DNA of 42,548 nt from Desulfuromonadales bacterium (GTDB lineage Bacteria > Desulfobacterota > Desulfuromonadia > Desulfuromonadales > JACZKF01), in assembly GCA_029289095.1 (NCBI GenBank), contig JARFUG010000023.1:1-42548 (forward strand), written 5' to 3'. The notes under the pieces are model-generated. The model did not search any database, was not told where the DNA came from, and saw nothing but the letters and a program-made list of their open reading frames with translations. Each line of letters begins with the position of its first letter. Within the stretch, counting starts at the first letter, position 1. Both the position numbers and the translations under genes were made by a program. This document shows positions 30,933-32,648 of this stretch, one piece after another.

Positions 30933-30961
30933 TGAGTTCCCAATGAAAGGAGGTGTCTGAA

Positions 30962-31363
30962 TTGGACACTCGCAATGAATCAGTTCGTGCGCAACGTGAA
31001 AGTCTTCTCACCATACTGATAGAGCGGTTGCTGCATCGTGGCTACCAGGACCTGCGGGTCTGTGGCCAGGAACGATATGAAGGGCTTCGCCCCGACTTCA
31101 TTTTCTGGGATGAAACGGACATCGGGTTCATGCCCGACGCAAGCGCGGTCAAGGGCGGCATTCCGTACATTTTCCAGGTCGAGACAAAAGAGTCGCTGCG
31201 CGGTGAGGAAGCGCAGCGGCGCATTGCCCTTTTCAGCGCCTATGCCCGTCACTATCGCAGACAGTTCGTTATTGTAACCCCCGAGGAGGCCGAAGACGAG
31301 GCCCGAGAGATTCTGATGCGAAGCGGCGGTGATGAGCGATTTGTCCGTGTCGTTGCCTTCTGA
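30962..31363 (+). CDS. Small protein of unknown function, possible PD-(D/E)XK fold
   Basis: The protein has about 133 residues from TTG 30962, which is 8 bases after a near-perfect AAAGGAGG; an in-frame GTG at 30953 overlaps that site. It is not recognised as a named family. RPDFIFWDETDIGFMPDASAVKGGIPYIFQVETKES has the spacing of a PD-(D/E)XK core (aspartate, then E-T-K after a beta strand), followed by a helix (EEAQRRIALFSAYARHYRRQ) and a strand FVIVTP. That resembles small nuclease-fold or Holliday-resolvase-like proteins, but activity is speculative. Its end overlaps the queuosine-salvage gene by 32 bases. Confidence 0.72.
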   Translation: MDTRNESVRAQRESLLTILIERLLHRGYQDLRVCGQERYEGLRPDFIFWDETDIGFMPDASAVKGGIPYIFQVETKESLRGEEAQRRIALFSAYARHYRRQFVIVTPEEAEDEAREILMRSGGDERFVRVVAF

Positions 31364-32333
31364 TCCCCAACCTGCGGGCGCAGGGCTGTTCGACGCCGTC
31401 CGCGGCGCCTGCGCCCGTGTCGCCGAAGAGGCGGTTTTCGTCTCTATCCTGACAGATCGTCTGTGCGGTTATTTCGACCAGATCGCAGCAGATTGTCGTC
31501 TCGTGATGGATCCAGACATCCATTTCAAGGGCGGAGAGGACGAGACCGTCGCGTTTTTTCTCACTCTGGATGCCGTCAATTTCGGCTCAGGCTATTTCCC
31601 CGCGATTCTCCCCGATCCGCGTCTGTCGGGATACAGAACCATCGCCTCGGCTCTGACCGATCGATTCAGGGCCGAAGGCCCTTTCAGCGCTGAAGACCTC
31701 TCCTGCATCACCTCCGAGCAGTGCGTTCGTCTTTTCCGCCTCGACTCGCGCAATCCTCTCACTTGGGAACTGGCGGCCCTCTTCAGACAAGCTCTCGGCG
31801 ATCTTGGCCTTTTTCTTCTCGAGCGATTCGACGGTTGTTTCAGCGCTGTGATCGAGGAGACCGGCGGTTCGGCCGAAAGACTTGTCTCTCTTCTTGCCGA
31901 AATGCCGCTCTTCCAGGATACCGCATTCTGCCGCGGAAGAATTGTTCCCTTCTATAAAAGGGCTCAGATCACCGCCGCCGATCTTCATATCGCATTTGGC
32001 GGGAAAGGAGTCGGGCGATTCGACGACATCGGCGCCCTGACTCTCTTTGCGGACAATCTCGTTCCACATGTCCTTCGGCATGACGGACTGCTGCGTTACG
32101 ACCCTTCCCTTGCCGCAAGGATCGACGGTGGAGAGCTGCTGGAGTCAGGATCTGTCGAGGAGATCGAAATCCGCGCCTGCGCGGTACACGTCGTCGAGTT
32201 GCTGGTGAAAGAGGCGAACCACCGTCATCGAGCCCTTTCGCCCCTGCATTTCGACAACCTGCTGTGGCGCCGCGGGCAGCAGCCCCACTACCGATCCCTT
32301 GCACGCCACCGGACGTTAACTCCCTTTTATTGA
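31332..32333 (+). CDS. Queuosine 5'-phosphate N-glycosylase-like protein (Qng1/DUF2419)
   Basis: The protein has about 333 residues. Family features seen: FDAVRGACARVAEEAVFVSI near the start, DIHFKGGEDETVAFFLTLDAVNFGSGYFP, ITSEQCVRLFR, VPFYKRAQITAADLHIAFGG, and FADNLVPHVLRHDGLLRYDPSLAARIDGGELLESGSVEEIEIRACAVHVVELL ending in LHFDNLLW. DUF2419/Q_salvage proteins release queuine from queuosine 5'-phosphate so that it can be reinserted in tRNA. The ATG at 31332 (or GTG at 31329) overlaps the preceding gene, implying coupled translation. The family is best known in eukaryotes and is sporadic in bacteria. Confidence 0.87.
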   Translation: MSDLSVSLPSDPQPAGAGLFDAVRGACARVAEEAVFVSILTDRLCGYFDQIAADCRLVMDPDIHFKGGEDETVAFFLTLDAVNFGSGYFPAILPDPRLSGYRTIASALTDRFRAEGPFSAEDLSCITSEQCVRLFRLDSRNPLTWELAALFRQALGDLGLFLLERFDGCFSAVIEETGGSAERLVSLLAEMPLFQDTAFCRGRIVPFYKRAQITAADLHIAFGGKGVGRFDDIGALTLFADNLVPHVLRHDGLLRYDPSLAARIDGGELLESGSVEEIEIRACAVHVVELLVKEANHRHRALSPLHFDNLLWRRGQQPHYRSLARHRTLTPFY

Positions 32334-32426: not shown

Positions 32427-32648
32427 ATGCCGCAGACAGTCACCATGGTTCCCGATCCGCGGGGGGGTTGGATCGTGAGGGCGCCCGGATCCTCAAGCGA
32501 CGAGGGGCACTTCGAGACCCGGGGAGAAGCCGTAAATTTCGGACGTGAACTTTGCAGCCAGGTGAATGCCGATTTCGAGATCCATCACCTGGACGGAAAG
32601 GTAACGCGCGAGCACTTCCGTCGCTCTACTTTCCCGAGCCGTTCTTGA
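32427..32648 (+). CDS. DUF2188-type small protein
   Basis: This 73-residue soluble protein has the pattern GGWIVRAPGSSSDEGHFETRGEAVNFGRELCSQVNADFEIHHLDGKVTRE, matching the DUF2188 layout (W-x-V, a threonine/arginine before the EA helix, then IHxxDGK). Function is unknown. GGGAG lies 9-10 bases upstream. It is followed by a small lipoprotein gene and a terminator. Confidence 0.78.
   Translation: MPQTVTMVPDPRGGWIVRAPGSSSDEGHFETRGEAVNFGRELCSQVNADFEIHHLDGKVTREHFRRSTFPSRS

Follow-up and report, generated by a model that had tools for sequence, protein, structure and literature searches.

The genomic neighbourhoods of the queuosine salvage hydrolase Qng1 (DUF2419, PF10343) have previously been surveyed with EFI tools, with transporters, for example those of the ureide permease family, emerging as recurrent neighbours (PMC11130926). 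That survey looked for transporters only (PMC11130926), and given this restriction other partners for Qng1 remain compatible with it. The products of tRNA hydrolysis are the source of the queuine base (PMC11130926), and it is this that makes the idea of an accessory nuclease working alongside Qng1 an attractive one. Two groups of nucleases are the closest described systems on the other side of the comparison: archaeal Hjc (PF01870), of ~125 aa and with a PD-(D/E)XK fold in which an Asp is followed by E-x-K/E on adjacent strands, and REase_AHJR-like proteins (PF18743), with the pattern H...PD...E-x-E-T.

The locus described here lies in a stretch of 42,548 nt, referred to as the window, from contig JARFUG010000023.1 of a Desulfuromonadales bacterium (GCA_029289095.1), where a small gene encoding a protein designated P0001 runs into the start of qng1 (Table 1). 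The initial annotation had described a 133-residue ORF overlapping a Qng1-like gene by 32 bases and had proposed that the two are made together; both the ORF and the overlap are as described, and an overlap of this kind makes co-translation probable. The GTG at 30953 was not taken as the start codon, as it overlaps the Shine-Dalgarno sequence. The P0001 ORF is not a chance ORF, since a homologue and paralogs of it exist, and with an intact reading frame, a strong Shine-Dalgarno sequence and a confidently predicted fold it is not an obvious pseudogene. That a partner for Qng1 is not generally described in bacteria had also been put forward, a statement that needs qualifying, as Qng1 neighbourhoods have been surveyed and transporters reported (PMC11130926).

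Table 1. Features of the P0001-qng1 locus, in positions of the window.
Feature	Position	Strand	Remarks	Basis
Shine-Dalgarno sequence of P0001 gene, AGGAGG	30948..30953	+	8 nt before TTG	sequence
P0001 gene, 133-aa PD-(D/E)XK-fold protein	30962..31363	+	open from TTG start at 30962, stop codon 31361-31363; probably catalytically degenerate	fold, family, residues
Codon R12	30995..30997	+	His in 37/39 members	family alignment
Codon D59	31136..31138	+	invariant Asp of 'PD'	family alignment
Codons Q72-V73-E74	31175..31183	+	aligned with E-x-E (or E-x-K) of the family, first Glu lost	family alignment
Overlap of P0001 gene and qng1	31332..31363	+	32 bases, +1 frame	
qng1 (DUF2419 queuosine salvage gene), P0002, 333 aa	31332..32333	+	ATG start at 31332; K209 and D241 kept	PF10343, PDB homologues
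DUF2188 gene	32427..32648	+	directly after qng1, as in sister-family genome	PF09954, 34.5 bits

The identity of the downstream gene as Qng1-like is borne out. Its product, P0002, scores 197.6 bits with PF10343 (4.3e-58), for which the cut-off is 25 bits, and is homologous to solved DUF2419 structures (1e-43). It retains the catalytic K209 and D241. The Lys is replaced by Cys in structure 7u5a and the Asp by Asn in structure 7ulc, and we infer that these changes are deliberate active-site mutations. P0002 is thus a bona fide and ordinary member of Qng1/DUF2419 that looks complete without P0001. The DUF2188 gene that follows qng1 has a syntenic counterpart in the same position in a genome from a sister family (L013:2305-2601, 64% identity), an arrangement found at 0 of 40 other Qng1 loci. 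Elsewhere in the genome that contains the window there are two genes for bacterial-type tRNA-guanine transglycosylase (L074 on C71 and L075 on C29), one of which has a queA-like gene before it and yajC- and secD-like genes after it (all named by eye) while the other stands alone; direct salvage of queuine beside de novo synthesis would fit the presence of a second such gene.

P0001 itself matches no entry of Pfam, NCBIfam, PHROGs or PADLOC, and the reading of the gene as part of a defence system was dropped in the absence of a PADLOC match. Neither phmmer nor the A4 profile found a credible relative of P0001 in the PDB by sequence, tblastn against plasmids and phages gave no match, and GTDB and IMG/VR contigs contained no near relative. 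A nuclease-like fold had nevertheless been suggested for it, and structure prediction agrees: AlphaFold2 run on P0001 with 22 relatives (23 sequences) gave a mean pLDDT of 90.9 and a pTM of 0.84, and was used in place of a run on the single sequence, for which pLDDT was 43. When the model was compared with the PDB by Foldseek the matches were individually weak (best E-value 1.8e-3) and came mostly from one superfamily, PD-(D/E)XK, with R2 endonuclease domains, Bax1, Hjc from several archaea, AF1548, Can2, Cdn1 and RecU-type proteins among them; phage endonucleases are among its structural neighbours in BFVD, and in both collections most neighbours are endonucleases of this superfamily. The profile searches proposed for this protein are informative through its relatives, two near ones, including a paralog from the same genome, passing the Pfam cut-off for Hjc of 21.1 bits (with 23.0 and 22.5) and an archaeal one from Thermoplasmatota (L065) passing that for AHJR-like proteins of 26.1 bits (with 27.1), whilst most of the family members tested have no Pfam entry at all. 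Taken with the neighbours of the predicted model, these matches place P0001 in the PD-(D/E)XK fold superfamily, of which a mixed beta sheet with flanking helices is characteristic.

A homologue of P0001 in a different family within the order is 36% identical (E 1.9e-19), and three paralogs occur in the same genome as P0001. Single genes are scattered through the order, the class (9 of 277 genomes) and the phylum (13 of 395 genomes sampled), with distant relatives in Archaeoglobi, Thermoplasmatota, Planctomycetota, Omnitrophota and one viral contig. The family is sparse and scattered, and its members are small PD-(D/E)XK-fold proteins, encoded by stand-alone genes and related to archaeal Holliday-junction-resolvase-like nucleases. 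P0001 resembles Hjc in its fold, its size and the arrangement of its Asp and following residues but has Q-x-E in place of E-x-K and no match to the Hjc entry itself; the pattern of PF18743 is shared by L065, whereas P0001 does not match the model and lacks both the His and the first Glu. In the wider family (L005, L006, L011, L012 and L051-L072) there is an H-D-E-E core in which E-x-E-T replaces E-x-K, recalling the His-containing PD-(D/E)XK nucleases.

It is in the residues of this core that P0001 departs from its relatives. In an alignment of 39 family members D59 is invariant, H12 is found in 37 and E72 in 35, whilst position 74 is Glu in most members and Lys in two, which read E-x-K there; E-x-K is intact in the paralog of P0001 from C125. 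Their conservation, together with existing knowledge of the superfamily, marks H12, D59, E72 and E74 as the putative metal ligands. P0001 keeps D59 and E74, but has Arg at position 12 and Gln at position 72, and is the only one of the 39 to lack both H12 and E72. The PD...ETK pattern from which a nuclease had been suspected is real in its first half, P58-D59 containing the invariant Asp; E74-T75-K76 is likewise present, but the column of K76 is not conserved and the homologous core is H12-D59-E72-E74, so that ETK does not stand as a catalytic motif. P0001 has neither the Asp with (D/E)xK that would mark an active nuclease nor the family's ExE with an N-terminal His, and with two of the four putative ligands replaced, His12 by Arg and Glu72 by Gln, it has likely lost cleavage and is probably, to judge from its sequence, catalytically dead or altered.

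Some PD-(D/E)XK enzymes function despite altered active sites, and for this reason the inactivity of P0001 is put forward as likely rather than certain. It could be imagined that P0001 still cuts DNA or RNA, with a role in repair or defence that has nothing to do with queuosine, through an altered site in which D59 and E74 are joined by a Lys at a displaced position, for example K64 or K76. The two acidic residues are in place, there are Lys residues close to the site and the kinship of the family is with the Hjc and AHJR nucleases; however, K76 is not conserved, the closest relative of P0001 (L003, of a different family in the order) has also lost E72, having Ala there, and the searches of PADLOC and PHROGs offer nothing to support such a role. 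We regard an enzyme of this sort as quite unlikely.

If P0001 were a partner of Qng1 the two genes might be expected together elsewhere, and the neighbourhood survey and co-occurrence test suggested at the outset bear directly on this. The comparison took in 12 further Qng1 loci from the class and 29 from the phylum with ~1.5 kb on each side, three of them being weak matches to the family and some being cut by contig ends, and a relative of P0001 was found within 1.5 kb of qng1 at 0 of these 41. Conversely, when the neighbourhoods of 48 P0001-family loci (some of them duplicates) were searched by BLAST for Qng1 the only match was that in the window. In the sister-family genome (G001) the order is DUF4112-qng1-DUF2188, so that the locus is syntenic downstream of qng1 but has a DUF4112 gene where the P0001 gene would be. 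A tree of the family pairs the three other members from the same genome as the window with members from G001 and leaves the window copy unpaired; G001 probably has no orthologue of P0001 elsewhere, a statement limited to probable by the fragmentation of that genome into 640 contigs. In the phylum sample the two families occur together in one genome, the one that contains the window, where 1.15 would be expected. The class shows a mild excess, with both families present in three genomes where 0.42 would be expected (P 0.006, uncorrected for relatedness). This excess counts against independence of the two families, although in the two of these genomes other than our own it involves paralogs and the genes are unlinked.

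The partnership with Qng1, and with it the accessory role proposed in the initial annotation, is thus not supported by gene order at other loci, by the syntenic locus of G001 or by association across the phylum sample. In its enzymatic form the proposal is that P0001 degrades Q-modified tRNA or its fragments and so feeds queuosine monophosphates to Qng1. A nuclease-type fold, the overlap of the genes and the known origin of Qng1 substrates in tRNA breakdown (PMC11130926) all speak in its favour, but the two altered ligands, the lack of adjacency at the other 41 loci and the missing gene in G001 leave it highly improbable. It would seem just as hard to sustain a version in which a single lineage has recruited a catalytically altered P0001 to bind Q-tRNA, or fragments that contain Q, and to channel queuosine monophosphate to a co-translated Qng1.

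No other fixed partner of the P0001 family was found. PriA is beside family members in one delta-proteobacterial clade only, Mfd is confined to another clade and a response-regulator/TPR gene to a third, and the Hsp70-like DUF3731 gene adjoins one paralog and is not shared across clades. The paralog concerned lies tail-to-tail with the Hsp70-like gene in both our genome and the sister-family genome (L076 and L085, the gene at L085 having HSP70 plus DUF3731).

The reading we favour, at a probability of roughly three in four, is that P0001 is a lineage-specific and probably degenerate protein whose gene has come to lie upstream of qng1 by chance and is likely co-translated with it, with no role in queuosine salvage. 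An insertion or shuffling event in one lineage would have put the gene upstream of an intact qng1, and its product has most likely lost the ability to cut nucleic acid, being at most able to bind it or else a decaying relic. The overlap probably couples translation of the two genes, in which case the start signals of P0001 would set part of the expression of qng1, and P0001 would have no biochemical part in queuosine salvage. The best rival to this reading gives P0001 a regulatory function, as a dead nucleic-acid-binding protein controlling qng1 expression, for example as an autorepressor or a translation-coupling leader. Such a role would account for a fold that is kept at high confidence whilst catalytic ligands are lost, and would suit the first gene of a pair that has a strong Shine-Dalgarno sequence and overlaps the start of qng1. 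The arrangement is, however, found in one genome only, and with linkage not conserved elsewhere the comparative evidence lends it no support; we consider it unlikely.

A true partnership would have made P0001 the first dedicated nucleic-acid-binding partner of Qng1 and would have shown how the salvage enzyme is supplied with queuosine nucleotides. The main lesson of the locus is instead that an overlap in one genome is no evidence of shared function. It also points to a small and unannotated PD-(D/E)XK family with an H-D-E-E core, in which E-x-E replaces E-x-K.
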